This document shows, in pieces, positions 218 through 13,887 of a DNA stretch of 14,760 nt (position 1 is the stretch's first letter; each line of letters opens with the position of its first letter). A model generated the notes under the pieces. The model was not told the DNA's origin. It saw nothing but the letters and a program-made list of their open reading frames with translations, and made no database searches. The stretch spans positions 1 to 14,760 of the forward strand of contig JAFGCA010000119.1 of the NCBI GenBank assembly GCA_016932895.1, written 5' to 3'. The translations under genes and the position numbers were made by a program. The stretch comes from Sedimentisphaerales bacterium (GTDB taxonomy: Bacteria > Planctomycetota > Phycisphaerae > Sedimentisphaerales > SG8-4).

Positions 218-1195
218 ATGGCACAAAAAAGATCGGGCAGACGCAGCCCTTTACAGTATGACGGTGACGATCATTTCGCCGGCGCATTCGCGAGACGACA
301 CGAAGACTCTGCTCCGCCGGCCGCGCCGCCCGGGCGTCCGGCAAGAGTCTCCCGGCCCGCGCCGCCTCGGCGTCCGGAAAGTGTCTCGCGACCGGTGCGT
401 CCCGCACGGCGCCACACCGTTCGCTGGACCCTTGTCGGCATTGCAGTGATACTGGCGGCGTTTTACGGATCCGTCAGAGCAGGGGTAATCAGCTTGGACG
501 GTGTCAGAGTGGCGGTGCTCAGTCGTGTTGCGGGGGTTTGTCCGGACCGTGCCGGCGCCTACACGTTCCTGGGCAAGCATTACAACGCCTCCGGTCACAC
601 CAAGAAGGCTGTTGACGCCTGCGAGCGACTGGTCAAAGTCCAGCCCGATGATCCGGAGGCCCACATTCTCCTGGGCGATGCCTACACCGACGAGAGCCGC
701 CCGGAAGAGGCGATCGCGTGCTACCAGGCGGCGCTGAAACTGGACCCGAACTGCTTCAATGCCCACTGCGGGCTCGGCAAAGCGTATTCGGATTTGGGGC
801 GCTATGGCAAGGCGATTGAGTCATACGAGCGGGCGGCGACAATCAAGCCGGATTCGGCTGCCGTGCACGTCTCTCTGGGGCTGGCGTTTTCCAACTCCGG
901 TCGCTACGAAGAAGCAATGCAGGCGTTCAAGCATGCCAAAGACCTCGATCCGGAGATCAACGAGGTCCAGGTGATCTCGGGCAGGGCCTATATGGAGGCC
1001 GGGCTGTACGATCAAGCCATCGAATGCTTCAGGGGGGCCGTCCTCACCGACCAGACCCACGCTCGGGCGTACTACAATCTGGGCAAGGCCTATCTCGTCG
1101 TTGGCGACCGCGATTTGGCGCTCCAGCAACAGCGTATTCTCGAGACGCTGGATTCCAAGCTGGCCGGCCAACTCCTCAATCTGATCAACCGGTAA
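218..1195 (+). CDS. Membrane-anchored TPR-repeat protein
   Basis: This 325-residue protein has a Pro/Arg-rich N-terminal tail (about 1-70), one hydrophobic segment (about 70-93, containing LVGIAVILAAFYG), and about six consecutive 34-residue tetratricopeptide repeats from residue 110 to the C-terminus. The TPR signature is clear: AHILLGDAY, AIACYQAALKLDP, AHCGLGKAYSDLGRY, YYNLGKAY. TPR solenoids mediate protein-protein contacts. The basic tail before the membrane segment predicts the tail in the cytoplasm and the TPR domain outside it (inference). The tail contains a 12-residue tandem duplication. The start is supported by GAGGT at 204-208, nine bases before the ATG. No catalytic domain is visible, so the partner and process are unknown. 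A six-base stem (GGAACG/CGTTCC, 1206-1222) lies just after the stop. The TPR call is secure; the role is open. Confidence 0.9.
   Translation: MAQKRSGRRSPLQYDGDDHFAGAFARRHEDSAPPAAPPGRPARVSRPAPPRRPESVSRPVRPARRHTVRWTLVGIAVILAAFYGSVRAGVISLDGVRVAVLSRVAGVCPDRAGAYTFLGKHYNASGHTKKAVDACERLVKVQPDDPEAHILLGDAYTDESRPEEAIACYQAALKLDPNCFNAHCGLGKAYSDLGRYGKAIESYERAATIKPDSAAVHVSLGLAFSNSGRYEEAMQAFKHAKDLDPEINEVQVISGRAYMEAGLYDQAIECFRGAVLTDQTHARAYYNLGKAYLVVGDRDLALQQQRILETLDSKLAGQLLNLINR
333..390 (+). repeat. 36-base tandem duplication within the TPR gene
   Basis: GGCGTCCGGCAAGAGTCTC (from 333) recurs as GGCGTCCGGAAAGTGTCTC (from 369), a period of 36 bases. At protein level two diverged 12-residue units share a VSRP core (RPARVSRPAPP, then RPESVSRPVRP) in the Pro/Arg-rich N-terminal tail. 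The in-frame copy with few mismatches suggests a fairly recent duplication in a disordered segment. Confidence 0.6.
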
Positions 1196-6656: not shown

Positions 6657-8570
6657 TCAGGGCGCGACTTTCAGGAGCGCCTCGGACCACCGGTGCAGTT
6701 GCCACGGGCCGAATTCGACGTCGGCGGTGACGACGTGGACGCCGTCGGAGGCGCGGGCGGGGACTGTTACCCGAAAGCGAAGCTCTGCTTCTTTCCCGGC
6801 CGCGGCGGTCGTGGAGACTTCGGCGGGGCGCGTCTCGAAGCCGGGCGGGGCGTTCAAAGTCACCTTGAATGTCTGTGATCTGTGAGAGTGGTTGAGTATC
6901 CTGACCGCCACGTCGGTCTCCTGGCCGGCTCGTACCTCCTGTCCATACGGATGAATCCGGGCCCAACGCTCGTCGATGCCGAAGTTCGGTTCGTCCCAGG
7001 GAAACAGGTCGCTCAGGATGTCCTTGCGCCGGCGAAGCGTTTCGGTCATGTGTTCGATCTGGGCCTCGTCGAAGCGGAAGGGCTCCAGGACGTGCTCGTT
7101 GATCAGCAGGGCCTGCGCCGGGATGGCGCTGCGGAGGAGATCGAGGCAGTAGAAGTAGCCCTGGCCTTCGCCCAGCAGATTGCGGTTTTGCAGGCAATAG
7201 TCATCGAGGCCCGAGGGGGTGAAGGAATCGCCGACGAAGAAGATCTTCTCGCCGTCGTCCTTTTCCACGAGCAACGCATCATGGTAGATGGTCTGGCCGG
7301 GGAAATCGTAGAACGTCAGCGTAAATTCCTTCCAGCGCCGCCTGTGCCGGTCGGGCACGATGGTGAGCCGTTCGATGGCATTGGCGGTCACACACGGCAA
7401 ACGATAGGCTCCGGGCCGGCGCAGGATGTCCTCCAGGATCGGCGTGGCGTAGACCGGGCAGTCGTATTCCTGGAGAAACTCGTTGACCCTGTCCGTGTGG
7501 TCGTCGTGATAGTGCGTGATGAAGAGGCCGGCCACGCGGTCCAGCTTGCCTTGCTCGCGCAGCTTGCGGATTTCGGCGATGATGGCCCCAGAGCCGCAGT
7601 CGATCAGCAGGCCCGTCCGGTCCTGCGCGATCACGAGCCGGCTGTTGTGGATGGGCACGATCCAGTCGGGAGGCGTTTTCTCGATCGTCTTGGCGTAGGG
7701 CATCCACGGCACGTTTGGGGTCTTGCCCAACGCGCGCTCGGCGAGGGTGTCGTAGTGTTCCTTGAAATACCAGTGCCCGGCGTTGATGGACAGGTAGTTC
7801 TCGTAGGCCGCTTGGAGTCTTTCGATAAGCTTGCCGATGGCCCGTGCCGGCTGTTCGATCACCGGTCCGCGCGCCGGCACGAGCACGTCGGGTTTGCGGG
7901 CGGCGATCTTTCGCAGGCTGGCGATCAACTCGCCGATCCGGCCGGCGTAGCCATGATATCCCCCGATCCGGGCCTCGGACACGGCGTCCTGCAGGCTGTA
8001 GAGATCGAGCAGATGTCCGTCGCCGTAGATGACGTCTCCAACGAAGCCGTATCGGCAGCCGTCCATCTCCACGAAATACGACACTGCCTTTCTCGTATAT
8101 CCCGGCGTATCGAGAACGTCGATCGTGACATCGCGCCATTGCAGGCGGTCGCCTTCCCCCACCGTCCGGCCCACTTTCAGGGCGGCGGTCGGGATCTTCG
8201 TGCTTTGCTGGGCGTAGTCGTGGAACCGCTTGTCCCAGAAGCCGGCCCAGAACGCACCGGTCTCGGTGAGCGGCTTCGCCGCGCCGGCCGGAACGACGGA
8301 TTCGGCGCCGTTGTCGACCAGCGCCCGGGCGGCCCAGACGACGTCGCGCCGCCCGTGCGTCAAGAGCACCATATCGGCCGAGCCCCAGTGCCGCTTTGGA
8401 TCGCCATAGACGACGAGCCTGTGGCCGCCTTTTTCGATACAGACGCCGTTCACGGCCCCGTGAGTAACGGTGACAGATGAACTCAGAACGTCCTGGCCGG
8501 CAGCGATACACAGACTTGGCAGAACGATAGCTGCAACGTGTATCAACGGATACCAATGCGATCTTCTCAC
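6657..8570 (-). CDS. Exported protein with two metallo-beta-lactamase domains
   Basis: This 637-residue protein contains an N-terminal hydrophobic signal (about 8-24, IHVAAIVLPSLCIAAG) and a first MBL domain (about 30-270). The second MBL domain (about 290-535) has an intact THYHDDHTD motif (His353, His355, Asp357, His358), a PGQTIYHD loop, GDS and a C-terminal NEH. The last 100 residues look like an Ig-like NEW3 domain. In the first domain HxHxDH has become HGRRDV (His72 kept), the TPGHT-like site reads TPGYT and the last His position reads PARG, so that domain is probably structural. The second domain should be a two-metal hydrolase of unknown substrate. The GTG at 8570 is preferred: AGGGA lies six bases upstream and the signal peptide starts there. 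Upstream in-frame codons to 8747 give an implausible Arg-rich extension. Confidence 0.87.
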   Translation of the reverse strand: MRRSHWYPLIHVAAIVLPSLCIAAGQDVLSSSVTVTHGAVNGVCIEKGGHRLVVYGDPKRHWGSADMVLLTHGRRDVVWAARALVDNGAESVVPAGAAKPLTETGAFWAGFWDKRFHDYAQQSTKIPTAALKVGRTVGEGDRLQWRDVTIDVLDTPGYTRKAVSYFVEMDGCRYGFVGDVIYGDGHLLDLYSLQDAVSEARIGGYHGYAGRIGELIASLRKIAARKPDVLVPARGPVIEQPARAIGKLIERLQAAYENYLSINAGHWYFKEHYDTLAERALGKTPNVPWMPYAKTIEKTPPDWIVPIHNSRLVIAQDRTGLLIDCGSGAIIAEIRKLREQGKLDRVAGLFITHYHDDHTDRVNEFLQEYDCPVYATPILEDILRRPGAYRLPCVTANAIERLTIVPDRHRRRWKEFTLTFYDFPGQTIYHDALLVEKDDGEKIFFVGDSFTPSGLDDYCLQNRNLLGEGQGYFYCLDLLRSAIPAQALLINEHVLEPFRFDEAQIEHMTETLRRRKDILSDLFPWDEPNFGIDERWARIHPYGQEVRAGQETDVAVRILNHSHRSQTFKVTLNAPPGFETRPAEVSTTAAAGKEAELRFRVTVPARASDGVHVVTADVEFGPWQLHRWSEALLKVAP

Positions 8571-8620
8571 GCCACGTCCCTTTCGATCGAACAGCGCCAC
8601 ACGAACCCGAAAAGCTCCAT

Positions 8621-8648
8621 GGTACAATCGGCTGTCCCGGCCGGTCAA
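8621..8648 (-). promoter_or_regulatory. Weak candidate promoter of the MBL gene
   Basis: On the reverse strand, TTGACC (8643-8648), a 16-base spacer and TGTACC (8621-8626). The -35 is good and the -10 is poor. It would give a short leader of about 45 bases to the GTG at 8570. An alternative lies in the AT island: TTGTCA (8854-8859) with TATAAA 18 bases on, giving a leader of about 260 bases. Confidence 0.25.
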
Positions 8649-8809
8649 CACCATCGTAACAGAGGGTTCTCGGTGCCGAACGAGCCTGTCCATGGGCGCG
8701 GTTGTCGGTCGTAACATGGGAGGCTGCCACGGCTCTTTCGCGGGCATGCATCCCGCTGCGACGCCTTCGGCGGCGCGAATCTCCCGCGCTTCAGGGCTGC
8801 GATCTGTCC

Positions 8810-8837: not shown

Positions 8838-9100
8838 ACGTAGTTTTCCCTATTGACAACACAGCAACAGAGGCGCATTTGGTGGCGCGCTACAGGGGAG
8901 CACGCTACAGAGCCGACACCGCTTGACGAGACCACCATGTGCCCCGCACGGTTTCCCGGTATCGCAAACGGATGGGAATATGGCAATGGGTGCGAGAGCT
9001 CCTCCAGATTGCTTCATCTTCCTCGGTCAACCGCAGTCCGTGTTCCAACCCGCCTTCACTACCGCTGGTTTCGTCTCGACAACATACAAAGGAGAGACAC

Positions 9101-10231
9101 ATGAAAATCGGAAAGCTAAACTTCAAACCGTACGCGGCGAAGAAGCCTCTGGGCCTCACCATGGGGAAATTCCTCTCCGCCCAGGACGTTGCGAAGCAGC
9201 CGCCGGCGAGACTTGGCTCGCTCCTGGCCCTGTCGGCCAGTGACAAGCTGAGACTCACTCTCGAGCGGTATCGCCTCGAACCTGACTTCAAGCTGGGAAT
9301 CATCGGTGTCGGTATTCTCACGAAGAAGGAGGTCATCGAGCACATCAAGAAACGGACGGATTTCGGGAGGGTGGCTCTCAATGCCGAGATAGGTTACTGC
9401 AACGAGCTCATTTCCACTCTCACGACCCGGCGACCGGTGCCCTGGCCCAAGGTTGATTCCAAGGCCTCGGCGTCCCAGATCCCGGAGCACAAATGGGTCA
9501 AGAAGTGCATCTGGCTCAGACTTCGTACCCGCGCTCTGTTCTGCGAGAACACGACCGATGGTGTGACCACGCCATTCGCCGACTACCGGACGAAGAACGT
9601 GCATCCGGTGTTCGCCAAGAGAGGATTCGCGGTGATGGCCCTGACCGGCACGGAGAACGAGAGAGTCAGTTTTGTGCCGAGAGCGAAAGGTAGACTGACG
9701 GTCTATATCGGCGGTGTAGGGCACGGCAGCTACACGGTCTATACCGGCCACTGGGGTGACCACATTCTTGAGGTCGGCCAGTACGATCCCGCCGAGGTCG
9801 CGAGCAAGTCGATCCATTTCCTCAGTTGCCAGACGGGCAGGACGCTGGGGCCCGATACAGTTGCCAATGGCGCCCACGCGTATGCCGGCTACAACGAGAA
9901 CTTCGTTCTTCAGTGGGACGACGGGAGCACGCCGCAGGTCAATGAGTTCCGCCTGTTTGCGCGCAGTGACAGCACCTTCGACATCGCCATGGCCTGCGGC
10001 GCGACGGCGCAGAAGGCGTATGACGCGACGATTCAGGCGTTCAATGCGGCCATCAGTCAGGTGCCCAACACCATCGCGGCAACGTACCTGACGTGGGACC
10101 GGGACCACCTCAGGCTTTCCGGGAATCCCGCCGCGGTCATTCGACCCTATCGTTACGTGAAGATCTGCTTCCCAATACGCGCCCTGGAGCAGGAGGACAT
10201 GCTGGTTGAGGCCGGTGCGTTAGCCGACTGA
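9101..10231 (+). CDS. Putative caspase-fold (clan CD) peptidase-like protein
   Basis: This 376-residue protein has no signal peptide and no membrane segment, so it is probably cytoplasmic. Residues 22-107 form a domain that reappears in the small protein encoded at 10444-10776: GKFLSAQD, ERYRLEPDF, LTKKEVIEHI, DFGRVAL. Residues about 195-300 look like a caspase/gingipain-type core. A beta strand leads to GGVGHGSY with His208, and the next strand IHFLSCQTGRTLGPD carries Cys243, followed by GAHAYAGYNENF. The order and spacing fit the His-Cys dyad of clan CD cysteine peptidases, such as the C14 and C25 families. Activity is inferred, and a CHAT-like or inactive relative is possible. AGGAG at 9090-9094 supports this ATG; a longer in-frame start at 8939 lacks a ribosome binding site. 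A strong hairpin follows at 10272-10301. Confidence 0.75.
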   Translation: MKIGKLNFKPYAAKKPLGLTMGKFLSAQDVAKQPPARLGSLLALSASDKLRLTLERYRLEPDFKLGIIGVGILTKKEVIEHIKKRTDFGRVALNAEIGYCNELISTLTTRRPVPWPKVDSKASASQIPEHKWVKKCIWLRLRTRALFCENTTDGVTTPFADYRTKNVHPVFAKRGFAVMALTGTENERVSFVPRAKGRLTVYIGGVGHGSYTVYTGHWGDHILEVGQYDPAEVASKSIHFLSCQTGRTLGPDTVANGAHAYAGYNENFVLQWDDGSTPQVNEFRLFARSDSTFDIAMACGATAQKAYDATIQAFNAAISQVPNTIAATYLTWDRDHLRLSGNPAAVIRPYRYVKICFPIRALEQEDMLVEAGALAD

Positions 10232-10271
10232 TCCGGCGCACGATCGCGAAACGGCAGCATGATGCAGAACC

Positions 10272-10301
10272 CGAGGCCGCGTGCCCCGGCACGCGGCCTC
10301 G
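10272..10301 (+). terminator. Perfect 13-bp hairpin after the caspase-like gene
   Basis: CGAGGCCGCGTGC (10272-10284) pairs perfectly with GCACGCGGCCTCG (10289-10301) around a four-base loop. It lies 41 bases after the stop. No T-tract follows, so termination may be of the U-less kind or the hairpin may protect the 3' end. It should limit read-through into the downstream small gene. Confidence 0.55.
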
Positions 10302-10376
10302 CCGACTCAAGCCGGGCCCGCCTTCGTGCCGTGCGACAACGCGACCGACCGACGACGTGCCCCGTACGATGGAAAC

Positions 10377-10404
10377 TGGACATCGCCCGGATTTCTGTTA
10401 CCAT
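10377..10404 (+). promoter_or_regulatory. Promoter of the small adaptor-like gene
   Basis: TGGACA (10377-10382, five of six), a 16-base spacer and TACCAT (10399-10404, four of six). Transcription would begin near 10411, leaving about 30 bases before the ATG at 10444. With the hairpin upstream, this suggests the small gene is transcribed on its own. Confidence 0.42.
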
Positions 10405-10443
10405 GGCAGGGATGGCTGTTAGAGGAAAACAGGGGGAATGATT

Positions 10444-10776
10444 ATGACGATGCCGGAGATTGACAAGGCGAATCGGAAAAAGCCCCTATGTTACGACCCT
10501 GCCCGTGGGAAGTTCATCCTCTATGACGAGATCATTTCGCGGCAGGAGAAAATCGTTCCCATCGACACGCTGTCCGATGACGACATGAAGAAACTCGTTA
10601 TCGAGCGGTTGCGCGTGGGGCCCGATTTCACGGCTCGGGACTTGAACGGCCGACGTCTTTCGCGCGACGAGGTGATTCGTGCGGTCGAGCGCGATGAGCC
10701 TTTTGGGCAAATCACCTTGGGCGGCGACAAGTCCTCTCTTCGGGATTTGCTGGGGAAGGTCGAGCGGAACCTGTAG
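10444..10776 (+). CDS. Small protein sharing the N-terminal domain of the caspase-like protein
   Basis: This 110-residue charged, soluble protein has no signal peptide or membrane segment. From residue 22 onward it aligns with residues 22-107 of the caspase-like protein just upstream: GKF at 22-24 in both, ERLRVGPDF against ERYRLEPDF, LSRDEVI against LTKKEVI, PFGQITL against DFGRVAL, and a Leu-rich C-terminal helix. It is therefore a free-standing copy of that domain with nothing attached. I do not recognise the family. It could be an adaptor, a decoy/inhibitor or a regulator of the caspase-like protein (inference). Three in-frame ATGs lie at 10438, 10444 and 10450. The GGGGG at 10432-10436 is correctly spaced for 10444, and that start also puts GKF at the same residue number as in the larger protein. 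Confidence 0.75.
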   Translation: MTMPEIDKANRKKPLCYDPARGKFILYDEIISRQEKIVPIDTLSDDDMKKLVIERLRVGPDFTARDLNGRRLSRDEVIRAVERDEPFGQITLGGDKSSLRDLLGKVERNL

Positions 10777-10860: not shown

Positions 10861-12093
10861 TCAGTCGTTCGTCGATCCCGGGGTGGGAATCGTGGCGTGC
10901 CAGTTGTTCGGGTCGTCGCCGTAGCGGGACGGGAAGATGCGGTTCAGAGAGGGCCCCAACCCGTCTGCTTCCACCGGCCACGGATCGATGTGGTGGGAGA
11001 AATCATCGCCGCGCGACCCGTCGCTGTATTCCACGCGGTCCACTTCAATCCAGTAGCGCGTGCCCGCGTCGTCGACGTCCCCGGGCTTGAGGAGCCGAAT
11101 TTGTTCGCCCTGGTTGGCGAGCTTGCCCGAACCCCATTCGAACACTTGCGCGGTTGCGGGGACGCCGCCTCGACGAACCGCATCGGCGTCTCTGGCCAGC
11201 AGAATATGTTCGAACGGCTGCAGCGTCACCGGCACGTCCGAGGCGAACCAGAAGTCGATTCCGGACTCATCCACGAATCGCCAGGGCTCCATCGCGACAA
11301 AGTCGAACAGGGTAACGAGCCCGGCGCTGATATTCAGCAGCTCGACGTATTCGGCGTCGCCGTCGATTGCGGGGTGGTACATGATTTCGTTGATGACGAC
11401 CGGCCCGACGAGGGGACCGGCGTTGGCCAGGCCGGGGGTGGGCCAGCTCAGGGTGACGAAGGCGGGCGTTCGGTCGCTCTTGATGTACCGACCGAAAGAG
11501 TTGCCCGTTTCCGAGGCTCCGAATGTCTGGGCCCTCTGACAGGTGCCGAAGAGGGAATCGGCCGGGGCCGTGAGGTAAAGGGTCTCGCCGTTTTCGCTCA
11601 AGGCAAACGGCGTCCGCGTGCCGGCATTGAACGGATTGCCGAAATGCGTGTGCTCGTAGAACACGATGTACCCGAAAGGCCCCACGGTCGTTCCATCGGC
11701 GATGACGTGCCGGTCGAGTTCGTTCCTGTCGTCGCTGAGCGACCACCCGCTGATATCCACGGGAAGGCTGCTGAGGTTATGAAGCTCGATCCAGTCGGGG
11801 GCCACGTCGTGCGAATGCGCCAGGACCTCGTTGATGACAATCGGACAGCCCGTCCGGCGCCAGTGGGCCGCCAGCAGGGCCAGATCGATCCCGTTGGTTT
11901 GCTGGTCGGCGTTAAAGTCGCCGGTTTCATTCGGATCGGCCAGCCACAATCGGGCAAAGAGCTGCAGATCGGCGAGGTCGACCGTGCAGTCCTGGTTGAG
12001 ATCGCCGGTGGGGCACTGCGCGCAGGCGGCGCCGGCCCAGAACAAGCCCCCGATGACGGAGGCAATCACTACCCTCTTCGCTGCGTTCACCAT
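10861..12093 (-). CDS. Secreted dockerin plus lamin-tail-domain protein
   Basis: This 410-residue protein has a Sec signal peptide (1-25, cleavage likely after ACA). A dockerin type I-like pair of calcium loops comes next: GDLNQDCTVDLADL (30-43) and GDFNADQQTNGIDLALL (about 57-73). Two lamin-tail (LTD) beta sandwiches follow. The first (about 83-205) opens IVINEVLAHSHDVAPDWIEL and contains GWSLSDD. The second (about 212-340) opens VVINEIMYHPAIDGDAEYVE. In bacteria LTDs are found in exported proteins, often beside nucleases or CotH domains; neither is present here, so this looks like a binding or structural surface protein. The ATG at 12093 places the signal peptide at the N-terminus and fits the predicted transcription start near 12189. 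The ribosome binding site is weak (GAGAG). No catalytic motif is visible. Confidence 0.88.
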   Translation of the reverse strand: MVNAAKRVVIASVIGGLFWAGAACAQCPTGDLNQDCTVDLADLQLFARLWLADPNETGDFNADQQTNGIDLALLAAHWRRTGCPIVINEVLAHSHDVAPDWIELHNLSSLPVDISGWSLSDDRNELDRHVIADGTTVGPFGYIVFYEHTHFGNPFNAGTRTPFALSENGETLYLTAPADSLFGTCQRAQTFGASETGNSFGRYIKSDRTPAFVTLSWPTPGLANAGPLVGPVVINEIMYHPAIDGDAEYVELLNISAGLVTLFDFVAMEPWRFVDESGIDFWFASDVPVTLQPFEHILLARDADAVRRGGVPATAQVFEWGSGKLANQGEQIRLLKPGDVDDAGTRYWIEVDRVEYSDGSRGDDFSHHIDPWPVEADGLGPSLNRIFPSRYGDDPNNWHATIPTPGSTND

Positions 12094-12187
12094 TGCTTCT
12101 CTCGTTCTCTTTTCAATAAGGCGACGTCGGAAGCCCTTGTGACTGGCCTGATTATCGGTCCGAAGAGCGCCCGACGACCCCATAGCA

Positions 12188-12217
12188 GACGCCCTATTTT
12201 ACCATGAATAGGGCGTC
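12188..12217. promoter_or_regulatory. 11-bp perfect inverted repeat, candidate operator
   Basis: GACGCCCTATT (12188-12198) and AATAGGGCGTC (12207-12217) are perfect reverse complements separated by eight bases. The element covers the -10 and most of the spacer of the reverse promoter. Most of it lies upstream of the expected start site, so it should act as DNA, as a repressor or activator site, rather than as an RNA hairpin. Confidence 0.55.
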
Positions 12218-12225
12218 ATAGTCAA
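12196..12225 (-). promoter_or_regulatory. Promoter of the lamin-tail gene
   Basis: On the reverse strand, TTGACT (12220-12225, five of six), an 18-base spacer and TAAAAT (12196-12201, five of six). Transcription would start near 12189, about 95 bases before the ATG at 12093. Confidence 0.6.
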
Positions 12226-12274
12226 TATGCGTCCGCCAACGGCTACACCACGCACGGAACGGTCGTTTCGGCGG

Positions 12275-12304
12275 TTGACAACGACGTTACAGCAGTCGTA
12301 TCCT
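12275..12304 (+). promoter_or_regulatory. Promoter of the Tat-exported isomerase-like gene
   Basis: A perfect TTGACA (12275-12280), an 18-base spacer and TATCCT (12299-12304, four of six). The start site near 12311 leaves a leader of about 137 bases. Confidence 0.55.
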
Positions 12305-12311
12305 ACCGGTT

Positions 12312-12392
12312 GGCCACAGGGGCTGCATACTGCCGGCATGGGGCAAACGTGAGCCCCGCTGGGATCTTTACGTGTGGGAGGCCGTTTTTTTT
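12312..12392 (+). promoter_or_regulatory. Candidate structured leader ending in T8
   Basis: Just after the predicted start, CCACA (12314-12318) can pair with TGTGG (12373-12377), enclosing a hairpin GGGGC/GCCCC (12340-12344 and 12353-12357) with an AAACGTGA loop. GGAGGCCG and eight T residues (12385-12392) follow. A structured region that ends in a T-run ahead of the ribosome binding site is the layout of a transcription attenuator or riboswitch. I do not recognise a known class, and the helices are short, so this is tentative. Confidence 0.3.
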
Positions 12393-12447
12393 CCGGGCTT
12401 TCAGCCACAATGATATCGCCGCGAGTTTTTTTCTGGAGGTTTCAACC

Positions 12448-13887
12448 ATGACCGAGGGACTGAATCGCCGTGAATTTCTCGGTGCCGGAGCCACCGGTGC
12501 CGGTGCCGTGGTTTTTGGCACGATGCTGAACAACTCGACCGTGCTGGCGGGGCCCTCTGGCGACTGGCCGCCGCCGATGGACCCGGTGAAGATCTACAAG
12601 GTCTACGTCGGGCGTACCGGCGGGATCTATCTCTCCAGGCCCACCGCCGAGATTGAGAAGTTCGAGAAGTACCTTTCCGGCATTGAGACCCGGCTCGGTG
12701 ACGTCAAGTTCATCGGAGGTGATTTGATTCCGCCGACCCAGACCGAAGCGGTGGTCGCCAAGTTGAAAGACGCTGGCGCCGACGCTGTGATGCTGTTCCA
12801 TCTGTCGGGCCACGGCGGGGGCGCGCCGGAGATGCAGAAGATCATCGACGCGGACCTGCCCACGGCGGTCTTTTCGCAGCCGTTCAGCGGGCACGGATGG
12901 ATGTATTTTCCCCGCTGGCAGAAGGAGGGCAAGAAGGTCGTCCTGCTGCCGACGAGCGACTGGAGCGAGCTGGATCGGGTGGCGGGCGTGATGCGGGTCG
13001 CGCCGCACCTGCGTCGGACGCGCATTCTGGTCGTGCGGGGCCCGCTGGGCACCACCGAGGCCTGCTCGGCCCAACAGGTCAAAGAAAAGCTGGGCGTCGA
13101 AGTGATTCCGATCAGCGTCGAGGAGACGGTCAAGGCCCATGAGGCGGTGGATATCAAGGAAGCGGAGGCCGAAGCCGAGCGGCACTGGATCGGCCCGGCC
13201 AAGAAGATCGTCGAGCCGACCCGGGCCGAGATCATCAATTCCGCCCGCTTCTACCTGGCCACGAAGAATCTCATGAAGCGCTATGGGGCCCGGGCCGTGA
13301 CCAGCTCCAATTGCATGGGCGGGCCGGCCAAGGGATGTCTGACCTACAGCAAGCTCAATGACCTGGGGCTCGTCGGCGCCTGCGAAGGCGACATGGATTC
13401 CACTTTGACCATGCTCATCTTTCAGTACGCCTACGGGATTCCCGGTTTCATTACGGACCCGGTCTTCGACACGTCCAAGAACGCGTTGATCCATTTCCAC
13501 TGCACGTCGGCGACGAGGATGGACGGGCCTGATGGCGCGCGGCTGCCTTTCTCTATTCGAACGCAGAGTGACAGCGAAAGAGGCGTCTCGTTGGATGTGG
13601 AGAATCGCATCGGACAGGACGTTACCTGCGCCAAATTCATCAACCTGGACAAAATGCTCATTTCCACCGGAACCATCATCGATGTCACGCACGATGAGCT
13701 GGGTTGCCGCACGCAGTTCTGGACAAAGGTGAAGAACGCCAACTCCATGTTCCATAACTGGGGTGGCGGCGTTCTCGAAGGCGGGGTCATGACGCTGCTG
13801 CACCGCGTCGTTTTCTACGGCGACCATGTGGAGAGCATGCGGAACCTCGGCCACCTGATGGGATTCAAAGTCGTGGAAGAGGCGTGA
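12448..13887 (+). CDS. Tat-signal protein with L-fucose isomerase-like fold
   Basis: This 479-residue protein begins with a twin-arginine signal: NRREFLGAG at residues 6-14, a Gly/Ala-rich hydrophobic stretch, and likely cleavage near residue 34 (VLAG). The mature part resembles the L-fucose/L-arabinose isomerase fold family: an N-terminal Rossmann-like region (ADAVMLFHLSGHGGG, KKVVLLPTSDW), then GACEGDMDSTLTMLI (Glu313), ITDPVFDTSKNALIHFHC (Asp337, His349, His351) and a C-terminal Gly-rich segment. In characterised family members a Glu, an Asp and a His bind Mn2+, and these residues are candidates for that site. Exporting such an enzyme in a folded, cofactor-loaded state is the normal reason for Tat use. 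Substrate is unknown, and true isomerase activity is not proven. GGAGGT at 12435-12440 sets the start. The next gene follows after about 106 bases on the same strand. Confidence 0.82.
   Translation: MTEGLNRREFLGAGATGAGAVVFGTMLNNSTVLAGPSGDWPPPMDPVKIYKVYVGRTGGIYLSRPTAEIEKFEKYLSGIETRLGDVKFIGGDLIPPTQTEAVVAKLKDAGADAVMLFHLSGHGGGAPEMQKIIDADLPTAVFSQPFSGHGWMYFPRWQKEGKKVVLLPTSDWSELDRVAGVMRVAPHLRRTRILVVRGPLGTTEACSAQQVKEKLGVEVIPISVEETVKAHEAVDIKEAEAEAERHWIGPAKKIVEPTRAEIINSARFYLATKNLMKRYGARAVTSSNCMGGPAKGCLTYSKLNDLGLVGACEGDMDSTLTMLIFQYAYGIPGFITDPVFDTSKNALIHFHCTSATRMDGPDGARLPFSIRTQSDSERGVSLDVENRIGQDVTCAKFINLDKMLISTGTIIDVTHDELGCRTQFWTKVKNANSMFHNWGGGVLEGGVMTLLHRVVFYGDHVESMRNLGHLMGFKVVEEA

Follow-up and report, generated by a model that had tools for sequence, protein, structure and literature searches.

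A predicted caspase-like protease encoded beside a free-standing homolog of its N-terminal domain: a candidate two-gene module of bacteria and phages

Why would a bacterium encode a caspase-like protein and, next to it, a small protein that resembles only the N-terminal part of its neighbor? The question was raised by an earlier note on a 14,760-nucleotide stretch of DNA from a Sedimentisphaerales bacterium (hereafter, the window), which suggested that the shared part, here called X, is a death-like domain joining an effector to an adaptor or inhibitor. We analyzed the two proteins, their relatives and the loci that encode them.

Two genes with a common domain

Both open reading frames that the earlier note had described are present on the plus strand (Table 1). 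For the small protein, ATG 10444 appears more likely than ATG 10438 as the start because GGGGGA is spaced 6 nt from it; P0001, a 94% identical relative, is likewise 110 aa long. With this start, the shared motifs fall at the residues originally given: GKF at 22 in both proteins, PDF at 61 and 60, EVI at 77 and 76 and FG at 88 and 87 (large and small protein, respectively). The linker region of the large-protein model has a pLDDT of about 65–76, and positions 131, 134 and 135, between linker and catalytic domain, are mostly basic (121 rows).

Table 1. Features of the two genes and of the gap between them
Feature	Position	Strand	Description
AGGAG	9090-9094	+	Upstream of large-gene ATG 9101
Large protein	9101..10231	+	376 aa; X domain, proline-rich linker, predicted caspase-like (clan CD) catalytic domain
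X domain of large protein	9101..9424	+	Residues 1-108; BLASTP and profile-profile likeness to small protein
Proline-rich linker of large protein	9425..9490	+	Residues 109-130; from column counts, 121 rows
Predicted caspase-like catalytic domain	9509..10150	+	Residues 137-350 of large protein
Predicted catalytic His208 codon	9722..9724	+	Motif GHG; H in 121/121 rows
Predicted catalytic Cys243 codon	9827..9829	+	Motif LSCQT; C in 121/121 rows
Intergenic hairpin	10272-10301	+	13-bp stem, 4-nt loop, no U-tract behind
Sigma-70-like promoter match, weak	10377..10404	+	9/12; upstream of small gene
GGGGGA	10432-10437	+	Suits start at ATG 10444
Small protein (free-standing X domain)	10444..10776	+	110 aa; 112 aa with ATG 10438

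BLASTP aligns the two window proteins over 93 columns with 27% identity (37 bits, E 3e-8). When the small protein was shuffled 3000 times, none of the 2984 shuffles that were scored reached the real score (37.7 versus a best of 26.6). A profile–profile comparison of the small and large families gives an E of 2.6e-12 over 108 columns, or 2.8e-14 with the N-terminal part alone. Full-length large proteins are encoded in four DNA loci—the window, a Sumerlaeota MAG (L001), a Bacteroidales MAG (L002) and a viral contig (L007)—and in all four the small-family HMM matches the large-protein N-terminus (E 5e-13 to 6e-8), while the large-family HMM matches each of the small proteins. BLASTP, shuffles and profiles agree on the collinear common domain that had been proposed, and the X domains of the two proteins are homologous. 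Although they are just 21–27% identical in the comparisons made, a chance resemblance or an unrelated structural module has next to no probability as the source of a likeness that is collinear, significant at every level tested and accompanied by the same order of secondary-structure elements; the profile and shuffle tests rule out the chance reading.

The structure predictions that the earlier note had called for give the same order of elements in the large and small X models: hairpin, short helix, long helix, hairpin, helix and long helix. The small-protein model (mean pLDDT 93.6) is alpha+beta, and its two hairpins are built from strands 18–20, 25–27, 65–67 and 73–75. Since the death-fold superfamily is a six-helix all-alpha bundle, the model does not support the idea of a death-like domain. 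Nor does Pfam, which assigned no death or effector-associated domain (EAD) family to any of 30 large and 51 small proteins scanned, with a copy of the database that may lack EAD models.

The X model gave no convincing match in comparisons with solved structures. The small-family profile aligns in one stretch (profile positions 18–85) with residues 224–293 of a formate dehydrogenase, 6ttb_A (E 0.0024), in what we take to be a Rossmann-type domain; formate dehydrogenase is absent among the structural matches shown for X. The alignment is probably due to chance, and a remote link of X to this part of 6ttb_A is a marginal, less likely reading. A weak likeness to the N-terminal domain of PhaR (PF07879) is limited to residues 18–32 of the small family and was detected in 2 of 51 members (best E 0.013); genomes G001 and G002, 40 Sumerlaeota and three plasmids gave no match to PF07879. 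When the small family was compared with seven PhaR segments by hhalign, the hairpin motif alone was aligned (P 0.007, probability 5.6%), and we treat a PhaR-like DNA-binding domain as a weak lead on which no reading of X is built here.

The catalytic domain of the large protein

The predicted fold of the large protein is caspase-like and carries an intact His–Cys dyad, in keeping with the clan CD assignment made earlier. The dyad residues and two acidic residues, Glu149 and Asp153, are each present in all 121 rows (the window protein and 120 listed relatives), and the His-Gly…Cys order of clan CD (His208-Gly209, then Cys243) is found in every row. The residue preceding Cys243 is Ser rather than Ala.

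At the level of sequence families, the Peptidase_C14 and C25 models of Pfam have no match in 30 large members at E 0.1, and a PDB sequence comparison of the large protein found no peptidase. The five Pfam families that matched large members are all unrelated (best Glyco_hydro_67C, E 0.0005; LemA, E 0.0008). No signal peptide was seen in the large protein, and no 19-residue hydropathy window exceeds 1.6 in either window protein or in any of the 120 listed large relatives (highest 1.60). From the model, we predict that the large protein is a soluble, apparently intact clan CD cysteine endopeptidase. Together with its relatives it would make up a conserved protease family that has no name yet; scans with Pfam, NCBIfam and PADLOC gave no convincing model for it. 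The invariant Asp153 is situated just ahead of the catalytic domain's first helix, which resembles the placement of Asp163 in gingipain R (RgpB), as judged by position rather than residue-level superposition; this position suggests a preference for Arg or Lys at P1.

Recurrence, setting and history of the pair

Searches for relatives returned 61 small proteins, 241 large proteins (120 of them listed) and 89 proteins matched by a combined X profile. Their source names include Chloroflexi, Planctomycetota, Phycisphaerae, Methylomirabilis and Acidobacteria, and a GTDB scan added the Sumerlaeota and Bacteroidales MAGs. In all four DNA loci the large gene precedes the small gene on the same strand, with stop-to-start distances of 206, 182, 92 and 82 nt (with start 10438 in the window and ATG 1952 in L007), and the second copy is bare, X without an effector domain, as had been noted for the window. 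Four source-named pairs have consecutive locus tags (FJ004_06315/06320, ACYS32_11535/11540, F9K13_02635/02640 and ABFS86_07645/07650). Furthermore, 27 of 101 small relatives are found on a contig equal in size to that of a listed large relative, whereas ten shifted controls gave 0.9 on average. On contigs of at least 2.5 kb, at least 22 of the 41 small relatives and 22 of the 86 large ones have a partner of equal contig size; for contigs of at least 10 kb, the numbers are at least 8 of 14 and 8 of 22. These counts are lower bounds because 120 of the 241 large matches were listed and each cluster is represented by one length. Solitary copies of either gene are possible. The recurrent pairing, without which the earlier note would have given up its proposal, is thus found across phyla.

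Genome searches recovered the pair in 1 of 40 Sumerlaeota, 1 of 395 Bacteroidota and 1 of 393 genomes of the order, the positive genome being already known each time; these rates are rough, since limited candidates were scored, in some genomes, and the Bacteroidota search missed the known large X copy of G002. The module looks rare and patchy. In two draft host genomes, combined searches that were non-exhaustive (one of them missed the large X copy of G001) detected X twice in each, in the pair and nowhere else.

Flanking genes differ between the loci, and no shared neighbors were recognized by eye. The pair is flanked by a metallo-beta-lactamase-fold protein and an LTD/dockerin protein in the window, by mraZ- and rsmH-like genes (by eye) in L001 and by different ones again in L002. 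In L007, an IMG/VR contig, it is followed by an HNH endonuclease, a small terminase and a large terminase (L007:745-5569; PHROGs E 6e-15, 3e-17 and 1e-164), which places it between the first 744 bases of the contig and a phage packaging module. This position is compatible with phage accessory cargo; alternatively, the pair is a host gene at the edge of a prophage. That the pair is patchily distributed, lacks recognized shared neighbors and occurs once next to packaging genes of a phage favors a mobile accessory module. Plasmids gave no match to the large protein or to P0182. The phage search gave vir519 for the large protein and the L007 copy, P0182 matched only itself, and the small protein had no match. 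In scans of viral contigs, single-protein and P0182 queries returned nothing and profile queries returned L007 only.

Several other features of these loci were recorded in passing. The minus strand of the window encodes, at 6657-8747, a 696-aa protein with two metallo-beta-lactamase-family stretches and a C-terminal NPCBM-associated (NEW3) domain. The protein encoded at 12310-13887 (525 aa) weakly matches a Tat-like signal at residues 49–72, and no Pfam family was assigned to its main body. Strong hairpins are located at 2947-2982 (15-bp stem) and 12188-12217 (12-bp stem). In L001, about 1.2 kb downstream of the pair, a gene at 10876-13017 on the minus strand encodes a protein that, by eye, resembles a gingipain-type (C25) peptidase.

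None of the 89 profile matches (71–255 aa; the search covered proteins of up to about 306 aa) joins X to a TIR, CHAT, nuclease or kinase effector, and no fusion of X to an EAD core component (VMAP, iSTAND, Ubl or GAP1) was found in 111 X-bearing proteins or the two draft genomes. We inspected all 18 of the 111 proteins that fall outside 100–120 aa. P0223-P0229, P0231 and P0232, and also P0230 (104 aa), appear to be fragments of the large protein; P0011, P0018, P0030, P0050, P0057, P0059, P0183 and P0215 are extended small proteins. P0060, encoded on a single 768-bp contig, has a signal-like N-terminus and another segment ahead of X; it may be either a genuine fusion or the product of a chimeric assembly.

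In a quick tree, 22 small and 22 large X domains resolve into two separate clades (SH-aLRT 100). Because small and large X fall on opposite sides of this supported branch, the tree indicates that their split is old and predates the divergence of the sampled copies; it gives no sign of a recent duplication. The description of the small protein as a copy of the large protein's "own N-terminal domain" is therefore right as to homology and loose in its wording, as the two versions separate completely. Distance matrices of small and large proteins correlate over 30 pairs (26 from equal-sized contigs and four from the DNA loci; P0048/P0086, on 1233 bp, was dropped as too short for both genes) with r 0.69, a value reached in none of 5000 permutations (Mantel test), and because of this correlation we conclude that the two genes are inherited together. 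When the large protein is divided, the correlation with the small protein is no higher for the large X domain (r 0.63) than for the catalytic part (r 0.66). X–X co-evolution thus leaves no specific trace, and the correlations are uninformative on contacts. Mean pairwise distances run from 0.351 (catalytic domain) through 0.415 (small protein) to 0.463 (large X domain).

The hairpin that had been pointed out between the genes is real: a perfect stem as long as its 13 bp occurs in none of 1000 shuffles. The other three gaps hold hairpins with a 12-bp stem and a 4-nt loop (L001 9156-9183, L002 9158-9185, L007 1902-1929). The four are nearly identical in geometry and unrelated in sequence, and they lie 27–40 nt past the large-gene stop with no clear U-tracts. 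Perfect stems as good as those of L002 and L007 were found in 1 and 0 of 1000 shuffles, respectively; in L001 the longest perfect stem is 5 bp (matched by 882 of 1000 shuffles), and its 12-bp stem requires G-U pairs. When G-U pairs and one mismatch are allowed, 6 (window), 1 (L001), 1 (L002) and 21 (L007) of 300 shuffles are as good. The local gap hairpins have z-scores of −4.3 to −6.1, the RNA fold of the whole gap is unremarkable (z −1.13) and an Rfam scan of the gap returned 0 families. Each of the four loci also has other stems of at least 11 bp, several of them longer than the gap hairpin. A generic 3′-end or terminator role is likely; we propose a 3′-end, processing or attenuating element, which would allow different amounts of the two proteins. 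The claim that each gene has its own promoter is weakly supported: one weak 9/12 site precedes the small gene and none was listed before the large gene, with 2 sigma-70-like sites in the region versus 0.7 expected in shuffles.

Possible roles of the free-standing domain and known systems

In our view, the pair is best explained as a protease module of two genes that has spread horizontally. Its small protein would control the enzyme in trans, most likely by inhibiting it in the manner of SpeB–Spi. We put this reading, which is drawn by analogy, at slightly below even odds (about 0.48). An enzyme with a trans-acting regulator is favored because the protease looks intact, a separate X copy is present in four loci and no further X partner was found. 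The first gene would yield a soluble clan CD cysteine endopeptidase with X as its N-terminal control domain, and the second X alone. Free X would bind the large protein, either taking the place of the resident X domain or docking against that domain or the catalytic face, and thereby keep the protease in check. Once the balance is lost, for example when a phage enters, when host shut-off sets in or when the small protein disappears, the released protease would cut cellular or viral proteins. Control could consist of inhibition or of activation by the small protein, and we prefer inhibition. Conserved Arg76 of the small protein (numbered from ATG 10438) and Lys75 of the large protein, with which the penultimate helix of X begins, are speculative candidates for a substrate-mimicking residue comparable to the Arg in the inhibitory loop of the RgpB prodomain.

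Adaptors bring initiator caspases together and thereby activate them. A comparable role for X, which we consider unlikely, would rest on mutual binding of X domains, with the small protein nucleating or bridging oligomers of the large protein so that the caspase domains meet and become active. In the available excerpts of PMC7159879 and PMC8195603, EAD systems show the same pattern, a small non-enzymatic domain N-terminal to a caspase-like effector with a second copy encoded next door, and the long C-terminal helices of both X models are consistent with such contacts. However, one EAD copy is described there as always fused to a core component, with the second in the adjacent gene, and adjacent copies as most alike (PMC7159879, in part), whereas here no core component was found, the second copy is bare, the two copies form separate clades and X is limited to the pair in the two draft host genomes. 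The X model is also not an all-helical bundle, though EAD4, 5 and 10 are likewise described as alpha+beta in the parts available. Because the EAD copy fused to a core component was not found, we prefer inhibition to assembly of the EAD kind.

Still less probable is an obligate heteromeric enzyme for housekeeping or processing, in which the small protein would be a structural or substrate-recruiting subunit, with no switch and no conflict role. Both proteins are highly conserved and co-inherited, and the good conservation of the small family is as compatible with an obligate subunit as with an inhibitor. Scans of window proteins (eight with Pfam, three with PADLOC) gave no clear defense gene, PADLOC returning only weak matches of the metallo-beta-lactamase-fold protein (E 0.0027 and 0.01). 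The patchy presence, the differing neighbors and the location beside phage packaging genes argue against such an enzyme. It is very improbable that the small protein is a substrate, recruited through X and cleaved to an active fragment or signal: its conserved basic residues (Arg23 95%, Lys25 90%, Arg57 99%, Arg76 95%; up to 102 rows) would suit the possible Arg/Lys preference of the protease, but its confident model is one well-ordered domain that lacks a disordered cleavage tail.

If the preferred reading of an inhibited protease is true, the pair would be a caspase-like switch reduced to two proteins, in which neither a sensor NTPase nor a CRISPR part was recognized and which could readily be rebuilt in a laboratory strain. 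The silencing of a bacterial caspase-like protease would become directly testable, and the pair would show whether a control domain split from its enzyme acts as an inhibitor or as an assembler. It also adds X, a domain whose fold has no clear match in solved structures. A wider claim, which we regard as doubtful, is that the pair represents a new class of cytosolic protease switch, a caspase-like executioner with a free control domain, serving several phyla and phages as a mobile immunity, abortive-infection or superinfection-exclusion module whose fixed hairpin sets the enzyme-to-regulator ratio.

SpeB, the enzyme of the closest functional analogy, is a papain-like, secreted protease. Its gene adjoins that of a propeptide analogue, and staphopain–staphostatin and Bacteroides C10 pairs likewise have a protease gene directly next to a small gene, with some Bacteroides C10 protease genes riding on mobile elements (PMC2873492, in the parts available). 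As in SpeB–Spi, the small gene described here adjoins the protease gene and is homologous to the protease N-terminal domain. In contrast, our pair has a clan CD fold, an unrelated alpha+beta domain and no visible signal peptide; it would be intracellular, and its inhibition is proposed by analogy. The prodomain of RgpB (MEROPS C25) inhibits via an Arg held in the S1 pocket and has 229 residues (PMC4357240, in part), compared with about 108 for X. Unlike RgpB, the large protein shows no secretion signal and no Pfam or PDB sequence match to peptidases. With respect to the CHAT-family CRISPR proteases (SAVED-CHAT and Csx29/Craspase), Pfam detects no SAVED or CRISPR protein among eight window proteins, and the TPR protein of the window (218-1195) is about 8 kb from the pair.

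A further viral relative is the hypothetical protein vir519_00054 (DBA34719.1; L006:5905-6651) of a Methanofastidiosa virus, whose caspase-like domain is homologous to that of the large protein (hhalign E 1e-13, 28% identity, 172 columns) and has the GHG and SC motifs. Unlike the large protein, it lacks X, which is also absent from the 10.4 kb around it, and it has a hydrophobic C-terminal segment that is probably a membrane helix. The pair is not described in the literature searched, a scope with most subscription papers and all preprints outside it, nor in the available portions of PMC7159879, PMC8195603, PMC2873492, PMC3501461, PMC4357240 and PMC12445089. Within that scope the pair appears new in itself, while SpeB–Spi and the EAD systems come close to it in logic and the clan CD proteases in fold.
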